From: Candidatus Bathyarchaeum sp.
GTDB taxonomy: Archaea > Thermoproteota > Bathyarchaeia > Bathyarchaeales > Bathyarchaeaceae
DNA: 36,753 nucleotides
Direction of reading: 5' to 3'
NCBI GenBank assembly: GCA_026014565.1
Contig: JAOZIB010000025.1
Coordinates: 1-36,753 of the forward strand
Shown one piece after another: positions 10,910 through 36,406 of the stretch. The stretch's first letter is position 1. The number at the start of each line of letters is the position of its first letter. The notes under the pieces were generated by a model. The model saw only the letters and a list, made by a program, of their open reading frames with translations. It was not told where the DNA came from and did not search any database. Made by a program: the position numbers and the translations under genes.

Positions 10910-11746
10910 ATGGAAAATCAATCCGCTACGCAAAAAGATCAAAATCTGAAACAGAACATGAGTAAAATCAAACACAAAATCGCCATAATTAGTGGAAAAG
11001 GCGGAGTGGGCAAAAGCACAGTGGCAGCAAACCTTGCAACCGCTTTTGCATTAGACGGATACAAAAACCGCGTAGGAATGCTTGATGTAGACATTCACGG
11101 TCCTTGCATACCCAAACTTCTTGGAGTTAAAGGGGCAAAACTTCAGGTTACACCTGACGGTGCTTACCCAGTAACAAACTCTGAAGGAATCAAAGTAGTA
11201 TCCATGGATTTTCTGGTAGCTAGCCAAGAAACCCCCATCGTATGGCGTGGACCATTAAAGATGCGAGCAATTAAACAGTTTTTGTCAGATTTCCTTTGGG
11301 GTGAACTTGATTTTCTATTCATTGACGCTCCTCCTGGAACGGGGGATGAGCCTCTTAGTACAATGCAACTCTTGCCCGAAATGGATGGCACAATAATAGT
11401 TACGATACCGTCGCAAGTTTCTGAAGACGTAGTAAAAAAGGCAGTTAGTTTCTCAAGACAGATGAAAATTCCCGTAATTGGCATAGTAGAAAACATGAGT
11501 GGGTTTGTTTGCCCAAAATGTGGCGAAACAATTAACATTCTTGGGGCAGGGGCAGGAAAAAGATTAGCAGAAGAATTGAACGTACCTTTCTTGGGACAAA
11601 TTCCAATGGACCCAAAAATCTGTGAAGAAGCAGACAAAGGAACATCATTCCTTAAAGAGTACCCAGATTCTACTGCAACTAAAGCTTTCAAGGAAATCGT
11701 AGAAAAAGTAAAAGATTTCTTGAAAAACAAAAAAGAAACAGAATAA
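10910..11746 (+). CDS. Mrp/ApbC/Nbp35-family Fe-S carrier ATPase
   Basis: The 278-residue P-loop ATPase has the deviant Walker A GKGGVGKST (residues 29-37), the switch LDVDIHGPCIPKLLG, the DAPPGTGD Walker B-like segment and the C-terminal FVCPKCGE pair (near residue 200) that bridges a 4Fe-4S cluster between two subunits. Mrp/ApbC proteins carry Fe-S clusters to target apoproteins. A second ATG at 10955 would shorten a polar N-terminus. Nineteen bases separate it from a NifX-fold gene, with AAAAAGGAG in between as ribosome binding site, and the remaining genes follow in the same direction. Here it is probably the cluster-delivery ATPase of the locus. Confidence 0.92.
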   Translation: MENQSATQKDQNLKQNMSKIKHKIAIISGKGGVGKSTVAANLATAFALDGYKNRVGMLDVDIHGPCIPKLLGVKGAKLQVTPDGAYPVTNSEGIKVVSMDFLVASQETPIVWRGPLKMRAIKQFLSDFLWGELDFLFIDAPPGTGDEPLSTMQLLPEMDGTIIVTIPSQVSEDVVKKAVSFSRQMKIPVIGIVENMSGFVCPKCGETINILGAGAGKRLAEELNVPFLGQIPMDPKICEEADKGTSFLKEYPDSTATKAFKEIVEKVKDFLKNKKETE

Positions 11747-11765
11747 AAAGGAGAAAAAAACCACA

Positions 11766-12140
11766 ATGAAAATTTGTATTTCAGCATCTTCAAACAGTCT
11801 GGATGCAAATGTAGATCCAAGATTTGGGAGATGCCCCTATTTCGTAATAGTTGATTCTGAAACCATGGAATCAAAGGTAGTTTTGAATGATTCTACAAAT
11901 GCAGCTCATGGTGCAGGAATCCAAGCCGCTCAAACAGTAGTGAACAGTGGCGCCACAGTTGTAATCACAGGTAATGTTGGACCTAATGCTTTCAAAGTTT
12001 TGTTCGCTACAGGAATTAAGATTATAACTGGTTTTTCGGGAAGCATAAAAGAAGCTATTGAAAAATACAAGAACGGTGAACTTCAAGAAACAACCAATCC
12101 AACTGTCGGCGGACATTTTGGAATGGGAAAAGGACAATAA
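11766..12140 (+). CDS. NifX/NifB-fold (COG1433, ORP-like) metal-cluster-binding protein
   Basis: The 124-residue protein is a dinitrogenase iron-molybdenum cofactor biosynthesis domain protein. It shows the family pattern MKICISASSNSLDANVDPRFGRCPYFVIVD, a central GAGIQAAQTVVNSGATVVITGN and the terminal IKEAIEKYKNGEL. The fold binds metal clusters: FeMo-co precursors in NifX, and a Mo-Cu-S cluster in Desulfovibrio orange protein. The glycine-rich end GGHFGMGKGQ is typical of free-standing members. It has a strong GGAG site and lies second in the Mrp operon. No nitrogenase genes are visible, so a nitrogenase role is not implied. Confidence 0.88.
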   Translation: MKICISASSNSLDANVDPRFGRCPYFVIVDSETMESKVVLNDSTNAAHGAGIQAAQTVVNSGATVVITGNVGPNAFKVLFATGIKIITGFSGSIKEAIEKYKNGELQETTNPTVGGHFGMGKGQ

Positions 12141-12174
12141 CACCCAAAAAAATGTATATGGAGGTGCAAGCGAA

Positions 12175-12549
12175 ATGAATACAAGATTAGTTATTCCAAT
12201 TTCAGAAGAAAAATGTTTAGATGCTAAACTTTCTCAGCATTTTGGTAGAGCCCCTTTCTACGCAATAATAGATTTAGACGATGACGGCAAGATCATCGGC
12301 AAAGGCACCATAGCAAATACTAGTGAACATTTTGGAGGAGTAGGTCTACCACCGGACAGAATTATGCAATTAAAACCAAAAGCATTAGTTACATATGGTC
12401 TAGGTTCAAGAGCACTACAAATGTTCCAAGCAGGCGGTGTTGCGGTGTTACGAACAGAAGCAAACACAGTCGAACAAGTAATCAAGGCATACAACAACAA
12501 CGAACTTCAAGAATTAACAACGGGTTGCAGTCACGCCCACGAACATTAA
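12175..12549 (+). CDS. NifX/NifB-fold (COG1433, ORP-like) protein with His/Cys tail
   Basis: The 124-residue paralogue of the preceding gene reads RLVIPISEEKCLDAKLSQHFGRAPFYAIID at the start, PPDRIMQLKPKALVTYGLGSRALQMF in the middle and EQVIKAYNNNELQ near the end. It finishes with TTGCSHAHEH, a Cys/His-rich tail that can bind a metal. ATG at 12175 is decided by the GGAGGTG at 12160-12166; upstream in-frame codons overlap the previous gene and are not homologous. It probably holds or passes on a metal cluster with the neighbouring MinD/ferredoxin ATPases. Confidence 0.87.
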   Translation: MNTRLVIPISEEKCLDAKLSQHFGRAPFYAIIDLDDDGKIIGKGTIANTSEHFGGVGLPPDRIMQLKPKALVTYGLGSRALQMFQAGGVAVLRTEANTVEQVIKAYNNNELQELTTGCSHAHEH

Positions 12550-12593
12550 AAGGGTACTAAAACGAGTGAACAGTCAAAAAGAAGAGAAAAATA

Positions 12594-13427
12594 TTGATTA
12601 TAACGGTTGCAAGTGGAAAAGGTGGAACCGGAAAAACAACAGTTGCCGTAAATTTGGCGCTGTCGTTAGATAATGTACAACTTCTTGACTGTGACGTTGA
12701 AGAACCCAACTCCCATATTTTATTACACCCAAAATTAACTCAAATAAAACCAGTTCACAGTAAGGTTCCAGTGATTTCGGATGACCTTTGTGTGCACTGT
12801 GGAAAATGTGCAGAATTTTGTGAATTTAATGCCTTATTTGTAGCACCAACAGCAACCATGGTTTTTCCTGAACTGTGCCACAGCTGTGGAGGTTGTATTC
12901 TGGTATGCCCAAAAGACGCCATAACTGAAACTCAACGACAAATCGGCGTCATCAAAATCGGAGAAGCAAACGACGTAGAGATAGCATACGGGGAACTCAA
13001 TGTTGGTGAAGCAATGGCTGTGCCGCTCATAAAAGCAGTAAAAAAAGAAATGAAACCTAATAAAAACGTAATAATAGATGCACCCCCCGGAACTGCTTGT
13101 TCTTTGGTTTCTTCGGTCCATAAAACTGATTACTGTATCCTTGTCACTGAACCCACGCCTTTTGGTTTGCACGATTTAAAAATAACTGTTCAAGTTCTAA
13201 AGGAGCTTCAAATTCCAATGGGCGTGGTAATCAATCGCGCAGGATTAGGCGACAGAAAAGTTTACGATTATTGTAAAGAAGAAAATATCCCAATTTTAAT
13301 GGAGATTCCTTTTAGTAAAGAAATTGCTGAACTGTATTCCCGTGGAGTTCCCTTTGTTACAGAAATGCCTGAATGGAAAAACAAGTTTCAGGAAATGCAA
13401 AAAACAATGCAAGGGTGTCAACGATGA
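12594..13427 (+). CDS. MinD-superfamily P-loop ATPase with inserted 2[4Fe-4S] ferredoxin domain
   Basis: The 277-residue protein opens with IITVASGKGGTGKTTVAVNLA (deviant Walker A at residues 7-15). A bacterial-type ferredoxin domain with two cluster motifs is inserted at about 60-112: CVHCGKCAEFC and CHSCGGCILVCP. The Walker B-like DAPPGTACS and the nucleotide-base segment VINRAGLG follow. This COG1149-type architecture occurs in pairs in the orange-protein (ORP) operons of sulfate reducers and in many methanogens, next to NifX-fold genes. TTG at 12594 is the only start that keeps the first strand. The stop overlaps the next gene by four bases. Confidence 0.9.
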   Translation: MIITVASGKGGTGKTTVAVNLALSLDNVQLLDCDVEEPNSHILLHPKLTQIKPVHSKVPVISDDLCVHCGKCAEFCEFNALFVAPTATMVFPELCHSCGGCILVCPKDAITETQRQIGVIKIGEANDVEIAYGELNVGEAMAVPLIKAVKKEMKPNKNVIIDAPPGTACSLVSSVHKTDYCILVTEPTPFGLHDLKITVQVLKELQIPMGVVINRAGLGDRKVYDYCKEENIPILMEIPFSKEIAELYSRGVPFVTEMPEWKNKFQEMQKTMQGCQR

Positions 13428-14299
13428 CCAAAGAAATCACAATACTAAGCGGAAAAGGTGGAACTGGAAAAACAAGTGTGACTGCGTGTCTTGCTGTTTT
13501 GACCAAAAATGCCGTAGTAACTGATTGTGATGTGGATGCTCCTGACCTTCACATGTTGTTAAATCCTCAAGTTTTGGAGAAACAAGAGTTCAAAGCATCC
13601 AGAGTTGCAATAATAGATTCGGATACTTGTGTGCAGTGCAAAAAATGTGAAGAACATTGCCGGTTTGGCGCTATAACAAACCAAATAGTTGACCCAATTT
13701 TTTGCGAAGGCTGTGGAGTTTGTGTATATGTTTGCCCAGTAGCGGCAATAAAACTCGAAAAGCGAGTTTCAGGACAAGCGTTCATTTCCAAAACAAAATA
13801 TGGGTTAATGTCTCATGCTTTGCTAAATCCCGGAGAGGAAAACTCGGGTAAACTTGTTGCGTTAGTTCGAAAAAACGCGAAAAAAATCGCTGAAACAAAC
13901 AAATGTAAATTAATCATAAATGATGGCCCACCTGGAATCGGATGTCCCGTGATTGCGTCTGTAGGAGGGACAAATGTCGGTTTGATTGTTGTTGAACCTA
14001 CTTTATCGGGAATTCATGACATGAAACGGGCTCTTGATTTGCTTGGACATTTTAAGATACCCGCCCTTGTTTGTGTAAACAAGTATGATTTAAACGAACA
14101 AAACACATCTGACATCATAGAATTTTGTAAAGCAAACAATGTAGATGTTGCAGGCAAAATAGTCTTTAATTCTGTAGTAACGGAGGCAATGGTTGCAGGA
14201 ATGCCCGTAATTGAGTATGCTCCAGATTGCGAAGTTTCAAAACAGATTAAAAATTTGCATAAAAACATCATGGATTATATGGCTGACAGTATTTCTTAG
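13424..14299 (+). CDS. Second MinD-superfamily ATPase with inserted ferredoxin domain
   Basis: The 291-residue paralogue of the previous gene starts at ATG 13424 (ATGA overlap), giving EITILSGKGGTGKTSVTACLA. The inserted ferredoxin region (about 65-120) has CVQCKKCEEHC and CEGCGVCVYVCP. The segment NDGPPGIGCPVIAS is the Walker B region and VCVNKYDLN the base-binding segment. Two such ATPases in tandem probably form a heterodimer that couples ATP hydrolysis to electron transfer or cluster insertion, as proposed for ORP complexes; this is inference. Longer starts upstream lie inside the previous gene and are not homologous. Confidence 0.9.
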   Translation: MTKEITILSGKGGTGKTSVTACLAVLTKNAVVTDCDVDAPDLHMLLNPQVLEKQEFKASRVAIIDSDTCVQCKKCEEHCRFGAITNQIVDPIFCEGCGVCVYVCPVAAIKLEKRVSGQAFISKTKYGLMSHALLNPGEENSGKLVALVRKNAKKIAETNKCKLIINDGPPGIGCPVIASVGGTNVGLIVVEPTLSGIHDMKRALDLLGHFKIPALVCVNKYDLNEQNTSDIIEFCKANNVDVAGKIVFNSVVTEAMVAGMPVIEYAPDCEVSKQIKNLHKNIMDYMADSIS

Positions 14300-14375
14300 G
14301 TCTACATTTGAAATAATTTTTGGAAATTTAGAAAATATTTTGTTAGAAATTCAAAATGATTCATTGATACCCACT

Positions 14376-14483
14376 ATGAAATTCAGGATTCTTAAAAACA
14401 AGAGAATAATGAGTCCAGCAATATCCGAAATAATTTTGGTTGATGTATCCATTAATTATGCTGTTGTGGCAACATCCTGTTAG
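14376..14483 (+). pseudogene. Remnant of an archaeal type IV pilin/archaellin-like N-terminus
   Basis: The gap 14300-14635 holds one protein-like piece: 35 codons reading MKFRILKNKRIMSPAISEII, then LVDVSINYAVVATSC and a stop. Basic residues, then a short x-SP-x-IS-x-I-I-LV hydrophobic helix, is the class III signal and assembly helix of archaeal pilins (compare the common RGISPVISxxILVAVTI form). The reading frame stops at the end of the helix and no pilin body follows, so it is probably a decayed or truncated copy. The rest of the gap shows nothing recognisable. Confidence 0.4.
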
Positions 14484-14635
14484 GAAAAATTACGTTAAAC
14501 GTTATTTCCCTTGAAGAGCAAAAGTAACTGAGTGCGAATGAGTTCAATATAAATCAATGACGTCACTCAAGACACCTGGCAAATCGATTCGGTTCTGTTG
14601 TATGGACCACGGTAGTTCATAAGACAGTTATGCAT

Positions 14636-14944
14636 CTACAAATCATTCGTTACTGCTAGCGGTCTTCCTTCAGTTAAAGCTTGGGCCACTTTTCTTCGCG
14701 CACTTTTTACAAGTCGCCAAATTGTTCCACGGGATACCCCCATTTTTTCTCCGGCTTGCTCTTGGGATAAGTCTTCAAGGTCGACAAGTCGCATTGCTTC
14801 TAGTTCTGCGGGTTCAATTGTTATTGTTCCACCGATTGTTGTGGGTTGGGGGACAAATTTTTGAGTTTTTGTAGGATTTGGTATGGTTACAGGCTTTGGA
14901 AGCCTTCCCCGTCGTCCTCTTCGGTATCTTCGTCCGCATGACAT
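14636..14944 (-). CDS. DUF134 (UPF0251) family DNA-binding protein
   Basis: The 102-residue protein starts with a Cys/Arg-rich end (MSCGRRYRRGRRGRLPKP), then the UPF0251 core ITIEPAELEAMRLVDLEDLSQEQAGEKMGVSRGTIWRLVKSARRKVAQAL. The latter is a sigma-70 region 4-like helix-turn-helix. The family is commonly found beside NifX-fold genes, and a regulatory role over them is inferred. It is divergent from the DUF5320 gene with 103 bases between, containing a perfect palindrome that it might bind. ATG at 14944 is used; a TATA-like AAATATATAAG on the minus strand about 35 bases upstream supports a short leader. Confidence 0.88.
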   Translation of the reverse strand: MSCGRRYRRGRRGRLPKPVTIPNPTKTQKFVPQPTTIGGTITIEPAELEAMRLVDLEDLSQEQAGEKMGVSRGTIWRLVKSARRKVAQALTEGRPLAVTNDL

Positions 14945-15011
14945 TGTTGTTCATTAGTTATTTTACAGCGCAACACTTATATATTTTTGTGCATTATCAA
15001 ATAATTGTAAA

Positions 15012-15027
15012 TTGTGCATATGCACAA
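15012..15027. promoter_or_regulatory. Perfect 16-bp palindrome in DUF134/DUF5320 divergent promoter
   Basis: TTGTGCATATGCACAA is a perfect, unspaced palindrome. One further copy of its half site, TTGTGCAT, lies 25 bases upstream (14987-14994) directly beside the TATA-like CTTATATATT (14976-14985). The position between two divergent starts is that of an operator controlling both, and the DUF134 protein is the nearest candidate. Confidence 0.6.
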
Positions 15028-15047
15028 AATATAGAGGTGAATAAAAA

Positions 15048-15434
15048 TTGCCAAGAGGAGATAGAACAGGACCAGAAGGTGTAGGACCCATGACTGGAAG
15101 AGGCGCAGGATACTGTGCAGGATATTCCGTTCCCGGATACGCAAATCCAGTAGGTGGATACGGCAGGGGATGGGGAAGAGGACGCGGAAGAGGTTTTGGT
15201 AGAGGATGGAGACGCGGCTTTGGAAGAGGCCAATTTGTTTATCCCGTACCAGCAGTTCAACCAGTTCCAGCCCCAGTAAATCAACCAGTTCCCCAAACAC
15301 AGCCACCAGAACAAGAAATCGCAGCCTTAGAAAACTACCAAAAGAATTTGGAAGCAGAAAAAGCAGATCTTGACCAAGAAATGGGTGGCGTCAAAGCCAG
15401 AATTGAAGAGCTAAAAGCCAAACTGGAAAAATAG
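15048..15434 (+). CDS. DUF5320 family Gly/Arg-rich protein with C-terminal coiled coil
   Basis: The 128-residue protein opens PRGDRTGPEGVGPMTGRGAG, the DUF5320 signature. A low-complexity stretch of GRGWGRGRGRGFGRGW type follows (about residues 38-65), then a Pro/Val/Gln linker and a coiled coil (about 85-128, EIAALENYQKNLEAEKADLD...). DUF5320 proteins accompany NifX-fold and MinD/ferredoxin genes in anaerobes; their function is unknown, and the Gly/Arg region could bind nucleic acid or a partner. The start is TTG at 15048 with AGAGGTGA seven bases ahead. Confidence 0.85.
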   Translation: MPRGDRTGPEGVGPMTGRGAGYCAGYSVPGYANPVGGYGRGWGRGRGRGFGRGWRRGFGRGQFVYPVPAVQPVPAPVNQPVPQTQPPEQEIAALENYQKNLEAEKADLDQEMGGVKARIEELKAKLEK

Positions 15435-15479
15435 TCATACCATCAACAAAAACATCAATGTTTAAGGGAGGTGAGGGCT

Positions 15480-15818
15480 TTGGATAAAATCAGGGTCGCA
15501 GTTGCAACCAACGGCAAAGACGGTTTAGATGACACTGTCTCAGACGTTTTTGGCAGAGCCAAAACCTTTACTCTCTTAGACATTGAAAACAATCAAATAA
15601 CCAATGTACATTTTTTAGAAAATTCAGCACTAGATTTTCATCATGGTACAGGCCCCATTACGGTTAAAATGCTGGTGGACAACAAAGTAAATGTTGTAAT
15701 TGCAAATCAGCTTGGACATGGGGCATCCGAATTAATAAAACAACATAACATCAAGTTGTTACCTGTCGAACCAGGAACAAAAGTTTCAGAGGCTACTAAA
15801 CAGGCAATCAAAAAATAA
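15480..15818 (+). CDS. Third NifX/NifB-fold (COG1433) protein of the locus
   Basis: The 112-residue protein follows the family pattern: KIRVAVATNGKDGLDDTVSDVFGRAKTFTLLDI, then HGTGPITVKMLVDNKVNVVIANQLGHGA, with SEATKQAIKK at the end. The strong ribosome binding site GGAGGTGA (15467-15474) sits five bases before TTG at 15480, which decides for that start over the in-frame GTG at 15471 that lies inside the site. It is the partner of DUF5320 in a short operon facing away from DUF134. A cluster carrier role in the same system is inferred. Confidence 0.87.
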   Translation: MDKIRVAVATNGKDGLDDTVSDVFGRAKTFTLLDIENNQITNVHFLENSALDFHHGTGPITVKMLVDNKVNVVIANQLGHGASELIKQHNIKLLPVEPGTKVSEATKQAIKK

Positions 15819-35795: not shown

Positions 35796-35918
35796 AAATA
35801 TTCACATCCTCAAAAACATCACAGTTGGTAATAAATTTTGAGTATTTCCAAGATACAGAAATTCAACATTACTTGTACCATATATAAAAGCAATAAATGG
35901 ACAAGAAATTGAAAAGTG

Positions 35919-36037
35919 ATTGCCAGCTTTCTCGGTTTCACGTGGCCGAAGACCACACTAGCGCCATGAACGGAACGTGGTTTAACTTCTGAGTTCGGAA
36001 TGAGATCAGGTGGGACCCGCGCCCTATGGCCGGCAAC
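35919..36037 (-). rRNA. 5S ribosomal RNA
   Basis: On the minus strand the sequence contains the invariant 5S core CCGAACTCAGAAGTTAAACC, and its ends pair (GTTGCCGGCC with GCTGGCAAT) to give a 119-base molecule. It stands alone: no 16S or 23S genes are in the window. A box A-like CATTAAAAAAG lies about 25 bases upstream (36061-36070). Isolated 5S genes are common in this part of the archaeal tree. Confidence 0.93.
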
Positions 36038-36060: not shown

Positions 36061-36112
36061 TTTTTTAATGTTTCGCTTGTTGCTAAGGGTTATTCAAGAA
36101 ACGTATATATTG
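36061..36112. promoter_or_regulatory. Divergent promoters of 5S rRNA and tRNA-Trp
   Basis: The minus strand carries CATTAAAAAAG (36061-36070), correctly placed for 5S. The plus strand carries CGTATATATT (36102-36111), about 27 bases ahead of the tRNA 5' end at 36138. The gap is fully accounted for by the two boxes. Confidence 0.6.
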
Positions 36113-36155
36113 GAAACCCGTAAATTGTGTTGGATGTGGGGCCGTAGTCTAGCCA

Positions 36156-36184
36156 CGCCCTGTCTTTCGACTTGGCGCTAGAAA
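36156..36184 (+). other. tRNA-Trp intron 1 (D loop), 29 bases
   Basis: TCTAGC of exon 1 pairs with GCTAGA at the intron end (36148-36153 with 36177-36182). An inner hairpin GCC...GTC-TTTC-GAC...GGC closes it. Cuts after the second base of the bulges CA^C and AA^G leave a normal D loop. The central helix can be drawn as four to six pairs, so the 3' cut may lie two bases earlier. Confidence 0.55.
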
Positions 36185-36195
36185 GGGATGACGAC

Positions 36196-36224
36196 AGTCG
36201 TACCGGCAACGGTTCTACCGTTAA
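36196..36224 (+). other. tRNA-Trp intron 2 (anticodon stem, 28/29), 29 bases
   Basis: The central helix GACG/CGTT (36190-36193 with 36219-36222) is flanked by three-base bulges ACA and AAG. Cutting AC^A and AA^G joins AC to GGG and restores a perfect anticodon stem. Inside lies ACCG-GCAA-CGGT, a GNRA-tetraloop hairpin (36202-36213). Confidence 0.6.
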
Positions 36225-36233
36225 GGGCTCCAG

Positions 36234-36293
36234 AAACAAGCAATGGGTTTGCTGACCAGAATCTGGGATGACGAAATTCTGGAGCGAGGAGAA
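36234..36293 (+). other. tRNA-Trp intron 3 (canonical 37/38), 60 bases
   Basis: The canonical bulge-helix-bulge: central helix CTCC/GGAG (36228-36231 with 36288-36291), 5' bulge AG^A (36232-36234), 3' bulge AA^A (36292-36294), outer helix the anticodon stem. Inside are hairpins AGCAA/TTGCT and CCAGAAT/ATTCTGG. An alternative helix CTCCAGAA/TTCTGGAG (36228-36235 with 36277-36284) competes. Confidence 0.75.
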
Positions 36294-36300
36294 ACCCGTA

Positions 36301-36329
36301 GGGACAGAAAATGATCTGTTTCGGGTAAA
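36301..36329 (+). other. tRNA-Trp intron 4 (variable loop, 44/45), 29 bases
   Basis: Helix ACCCG/CGGGT (36294-36298 with 36322-36326), then bulge TA^G and inner helix GGACAGA/TCTGTTT (36302-36308 with 36315-36321). The 3' cut lies in the AAA at 36327-36329; cutting after 36329 leaves the standard five-base variable loop, cutting after 36328 leaves six. Confidence 0.6.
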
Positions 36330-36406
36330 GGTCGTCGGTTCAATTCCGGCCGGCCCCACCATTTTCCCTGCATTGGTTCTTTCTATTTAGGTCTCAATAT
36401 TTTATG

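Follow-up and report, generated by a model that had tools for sequence, protein, structure and literature searches.

The window, the whole 36,753-nt stretch of Candidatus Bathyarchaeum sp. DNA analysed here, carries on its forward strand a 221-nt tRNA-Trp(CCA) gene (36138-36358) divided into five exons by four introns. The explanation that best accounts for the data as a whole, and in which we have high confidence, is a working single-copy gene with a TATA promoter, spliced by EndA in an ordered series of cuts and holding a methylation guide in its 37/38 intron. Removal of the four introns (Table 1) leaves a 74-nt tRNA-Trp with the sequence GGGGCCGTAGTCTAGCCAGGGATGACGACGGGCTCCAGACCCGTAGGTCGTCGGTTCAATTCCGGCCGGCCCCA. 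The original prediction of four introns is borne out, for a single-copy tRNA-Trp(CCA) gene, by 117 orthologues, by bulge-helix-bulge (BHB) cores at all four sites, by the TATA box and by a broad-specificity EndA.

The gene begins with GGGGCCG and finishes with CGGCCCC-A, and in its T arm a stem of five pairs carries the loop UUCAAUU. Acceptor arms, T arm, CCA anticodon and inserts of 29, 29, 60 and 29 nt are all present, as first described. In the spliced tRNA the acceptor, anticodon and T stems are fully paired. The earlier statement that every stem is paired was slightly too strong, because the D stem forms three of its four pairs, with U13-U22 unpaired, an arrangement shared by many relatives. 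The proposed intron sites in the D loop, in the anticodon stem and at 37/38 hold; the last intron, previously placed in the variable loop, lies at 43/44, on the border between anticodon stem and variable loop. ARAGORN makes no tRNA call on the raw window and, with introns allowed, misreads the precursor as tRNA-Arg; from the spliced 74-mer it returns tRNA-Trp(CCA), in line with the predicted product. Rfam gives nothing convincing at this locus. A second GGGATGACGA at 36265 was considered as a D arm and rejected, as no Trp anticodon lies downstream; it corresponds to box C' of the 37/38 intron.

Table 1 Features of the tRNA-Trp(CCA) locus in window coordinates.
Feature	Position	Strand	Remarks
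TATA box CGTATATATT	36102-36111	+	probable promoter of the tRNA gene; role inferred
Exon 1, tRNA positions 1-17	36138-36154	+	from comparison with single-intron relative L070
Intron 1, 29 nt, 17/17a (D loop)	36155-36183	+	BHB core CUAG/CUAG, slidable by 1 nt; missing from many relatives
Exon 2, tRNA positions 17a-28	36184-36195	+	
Intron 2, 29 nt, 28/29 (anticodon stem)	36196-36224	+	BHB core GACG/CGUU, unique register; missing from many relatives
Exon 3, tRNA positions 29-37	36225-36233	+	anticodon CCA at 36230-36232
Intron 3, 60 nt, 37/38	36234-36293	+	BHB core CUCC/GGAG; probable box C/D methylation guide
D' guide GGGUUU	36245-36250	+	antisense to 36292-36297 (AA of intron 3 end, A38-C41); D'+5 faces C39
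Box D' (CUGA)	36252-36255	+	CUGA or CGGA in nearly all orthologues
Box C' (AUGACGA)	36268-36274	+	AUGAAGA or AUGACGA in 100/109 genes
Second antisense UUCUGGAGC	36277-36285	+	complementary to 36227-36235 (tRNA 31-37 plus two intron bases)
Degenerate box D (AGGA)	36287-36290	+	follows second antisense; would put C34 at +5
Exon 4, tRNA positions 38-43	36294-36299	+	
Intron 4, 29 nt, 43/44	36300-36328	+	BHB core ACCC/GGGU, slidable by up to 3 nt; missing from many relatives
Exon 5, tRNA positions 44-73	36329-36358	+	
Acceptor stem strands	36138-36144 and 36351-36357	+	
Encoded CCA	36359-36361	+	directly 3' of exon 5

A DNA search gave matches in 54 of 61 related genomes, the weakest of them merely T arms of other tRNAs, and a pattern based on the 37/38 intron found matches in 121 of the 257 genomes of the class. 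A pattern scan of the wider phylum was discarded, the pattern being its own reverse complement and matching by chance. The spliced product of L070, a 140-nt gene of the relative G041 that has the 37/38 intron only, served as the reference in an alignment of 117 distinct orthologous genes. The window's 74-mer differs from that product by a single base, in the T loop; across the genus the mature sequence is constant except for one T-loop base, while the introns diverge. Four introns are present in 13 of the orthologues, three in 16, two in 69 and one in 19 (two parses corrected by hand); the 13 are the window gene and 12 further distinct orthologues. The nearest named genomes, Candidatus Bathyarchaeum tardum M17C-73-01 and the M17C-01 MAG, both have a 222-nt four-intron version. 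The 37/38 intron occurs alone, with one of the three others, with each pair of them (17/17a and 28/29; 17/17a and 43/44; 28/29 and 43/44) or with all three; no gene among the 117 has five introns. A few orthologues (L046, L078 and L212) have a different intron, of 31-34 nt at 25/26, in place of the 17/17a and 28/29 introns. The survey is our strongest evidence, because each short intron occurs both present and absent around a near-constant tRNA, and homologues without individual inserts fix the exon limits.

At each of the four introns, one register combines four out of four central pairs, 3-nt bulges and AA just 5' of the 3' cut. Shuffling the introns (200 shuffles) produced an equal or better motif in 0, 0, 3.5 and 0% of cases for introns 1-4, respectively. 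The flanking helices are relaxed at some of the sites: in the window the 37/38 motif has a weak intron-side helix, and the 17/17a and 43/44 motifs have a short exon-side helix or none. All 29 genes that carry a D-loop intron retain the CUAG core at a fixed 5' position, the 3' end having been picked within a few bases for best pairing, and the adjacent intron helix varies on both sides. At three of the four introns the cut register is ambiguous by 1-3 nt with the same mature tRNA; since these cuts can slide without altering the product, the exact bonds cut are predicted from the motif. This freedom is the point in favour of a gene with fewer than four introns, in which one 29-nt stretch is retained in the mature tRNA, or removal in another register. 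We regard such a structure as very improbable, because each short stretch is missing in relatives around the same exons, and any one of them, if kept, would enlarge the cloverleaf in a stem or at its border. Judged from the sequence comparisons, the locus is a case of four introns in one tRNA-Trp(CCA) gene, and we predict EndA cleavage at the four BHB sites followed by ligation.

The window's genome encodes two EndA paralogues. One of these has a T where the M. jannaschii enzyme has its catalytic His, a position assigned from the printed alignment and the catalytic triad. The other, catalytic paralogue aligns nearly end to end with chain B of Aeropyrum pernix EndA (E 4e-37), and its K39 falls in the column of A. 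pernix K44, a lysine of the crenarchaea-specific loop reported to be needed for broad specificity (PMC6379350). The pair fits a heterotetramer that would assemble from both paralogues and cut relaxed and non-canonical motifs.

An intact tRNA-Trp gene elsewhere, which the original prediction had named as a possible refutation, was not found: a single tRNA-Trp match is present in the window's genome, and likewise in each of the single-contig relatives G002 and G007. A second copy is improbable rather than strictly impossible, since the assembly is a draft of 43 contigs with 95.7% completeness. The draft state could also shelter a working gene in the missing part of the genome, the window locus then being a decayed pseudogene. 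This is barely credible in view of a mature tRNA that stays constant throughout the genus except for the one T-loop base while its introns diverge, the single match in both one-contig relatives and the conserved promoter. The TATA box stands at about the same upstream distance throughout the genus and much of the family. We therefore keep to a working single-copy gene.

The gene for TrpRS lies in the same window, and a 5S rRNA gene (35918-36037, minus strand) is the divergent neighbour of the tRNA gene. From ORF reading only, positions 10910-15818 hold a series of genes for Mrp-like P-loop ATPases, for two ferredoxin-type MinD-like ATPases and for small proteins that resemble nitrogenase-cofactor accessory domains. 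In two genomes of the order, G165 (L185/L186) and G188 (L198/L199), the tRNA-Trp guide-intron pattern has two matches each; one of the two copies in G165 has an altered D' guide, and one of the two matches in G188 may be contamination or a true second copy. The window's genome also contains a 142-nt tRNA-Arg(CCU)-like gene (L229 195-336; G000:C19:18814-18955) with seemingly three introns of about 25, 21 and 18 nt, near 9/10, 29/30 and 37/38, which points to multi-intron tRNAs in this genome beyond tRNA-Trp.

The conserved 37/38 intron, 57-81 nt long across the orthologues, probably acts in the ribose methylation of tRNA-Trp as a box C/D guide. These guide features of the 60-nt intron go beyond the original prediction. 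In the window it contains, in order, GGGUUU-G-CUGA, AUGACGA and UUCUGGAGC. Exceptions to the box D' consensus among 109 genes are seven CAGA calls, most of them apparently misplaced boxes. The nucleotide five before box D' forms a G-C pair with C39 in 107 of the 109, and the guide pairs with positions 39-42 in 95% of cells, a figure that drops to 1-50% once the register is shifted by one to three bases. Changes in the D' guide are matched in its target: GGGUAU occurs with AUACCC in L080-L082, and ACAGGUUU with AAACCUGU in L049. In nearly every gene the second antisense is complementary to positions 31-37 plus one or two bases of the intron, although the search pattern already demanded the first part of this match. 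Five bases past the partner of C34, many genes have a box D-like GUNA, and the window has AGGA. No box C was seen within the 37/38 intron. A candidate box C in the exonic D arm (AUGACGA) is found in most genes and is missing in L207 and L208, which retain the intron; its assignment is suggestive. The tRNA-Trp intron guide of Haloferax volcanii has two targets, nucleotides 34 and 39 (PMC4090602). Given this precedent and the pairing pattern, C39 is a good and C34 a fair prediction for the methylated nucleotides.

A different view of the same intron would accept all four introns and assign the antisense stretches to folding or splicing instead of guidance. The missing box C and the degenerate box D of the window speak for it, and a 9-bp GCUCCAGAA/UUCUGGAGC helix does form in cis in the predicted fold. 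We nevertheless think it unlikely in view of the conserved boxes D' and C', the exact placement of nucleotide 39 opposite D'+5 of the guide, the matched changes of guide and target in L080-L082 and L049, and the fact that nucleotides 34 and 39 are the two known targets of the Haloferax tRNA-Trp intron guide (PMC4090602). A guide function is the reading that we carry forward.

In the processing scheme that we propose, the precursor would be transcribed from the conserved TATA promoter, a two-subunit, crenarchaeal-type EndA would cut each BHB, and a ligase would join the exons into the 74-nt tRNA. From its conserved boxes and antisense pairing, the 37/38 intron is predicted to guide ribose methylation of C39, and probably of C34, in the precursor before its own removal. 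The 17/17a, 28/29 and 43/44 introns would be dispensable insertions, gained and lost. The 43/44 motif uses A38-C41, the same bases that pair with the D' guide, and the exon helix of the 37/38 motif joins 29-31 with 39-41. Both of these motifs and the D' guide thus draw on nucleotides 38-41, so splicing must be ordered. One D-stem strand is also occupied by the 28/29 motif and one by the 17/17a motif, and the full set of structures cannot exist simultaneously. Folding prediction for the entire precursor gives hairpins near the 17/17a and 43/44 motifs, and in this fold the second antisense holds the anticodon loop, hiding the 37/38 motif. Base-pair overlap and folding together suggest that the short introns would be removed first, followed by methylation, with the 37/38 cut made last. 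In the pre-tRNA-Ile of C. merolae the anticodon intron is likewise removed last (PMC9602550).

The equal size of the three short introns had been taken as a hint of common origin. Pairwise alignments of the three 29-nt introns are no better than those of shuffled sequences, and in relatives the lengths vary, from 20-31 nt at 17/17a to 22-45 nt at 28/29 and 28-45 nt at 43/44. No common origin is detectable at the level of sequence, and the equal lengths in the window are best read as coincidence. No copies of the introns elsewhere were found in 26 genomes except for weak matches, apparently due to chance; one in G031 (80%, E 0.014) was rejected as an intron copy, its locus not resembling a tRNA gene. 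Intron transposition has been reported in Thermoproteales (PMC4033280), and we found no sign of it at the introns of the window gene. The 37/38 intron was recovered in 115 of the 117 genes as parsed, and the remaining two are parsing errors; its occurrence in every parsed orthologue suggests that it is probably the oldest, although the survey pattern itself required its presence.

Three introns per tRNA is the archaeal maximum given in reviews (PMC4033280, PMC8450103, PMC4390854), in agreement with the figure quoted in the original prediction, and is reached by tRNA-Glu(UUC) of Pyrobaculum calidifontis and tRNA-Pro(UGG) of P. islandicum (PMC4390854). The multi-intron genes of Thermoproteales resemble the bathyarchaeal gene in combining several short BHB introns at canonical and non-canonical sites of one gene. 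They differ in having at most three, whereas the bathyarchaeal gene has four, one of them a probable methylation guide. Like the Haloferax volcanii guide, the bathyarchaeal one lies in the 37/38 intron of tRNA-Trp(CCA) and has antisense stretches aimed at 34 and 39. In contrast to Haloferax, the bathyarchaeal tRNA has C at position 39, its 37/38 intron reaches only 57-81 nt, box D is degenerate, no box C is evident, and the window's gene has three further introns. The pre-tRNA-Ile of C. merolae (PMC9602550) likewise has BHB introns in the D arm, at the anticodon and elsewhere within a single tRNA, but it belongs to a eukaryotic nucleus, has three introns and contains no methylation guide. Multiple introns, often at non-canonical positions, are shared with soil Asgard archaea, in which more than half of the tRNA genes are multi-intron; the main text of that report gives no per-gene maximum, and four-intron genes may occur among them (PMC11291895).

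Our literature search for an archaeal tRNA gene with four introns found none, and this is likely the first. We lean, by a modest margin, towards the fuller statement that the bathyarchaeal tRNA-Trp is the first with four introns, that motif overlap fixes the order of guiding and splicing, and that the orthologues retain states from one to four introns. The archaeal limit on introns per tRNA gene appears to be raised from three to four, and a high intron number is not confined to hyperthermophilic Thermoproteales. The many intron combinations within one class provide a natural series for the gain and loss of tRNA introns. Because a standard finder misses tRNA-Trp here, such genomes can seem to be without it. 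Since guide pairing and splice motifs overlap, the order in which the precursor is modified and spliced can be tested directly.
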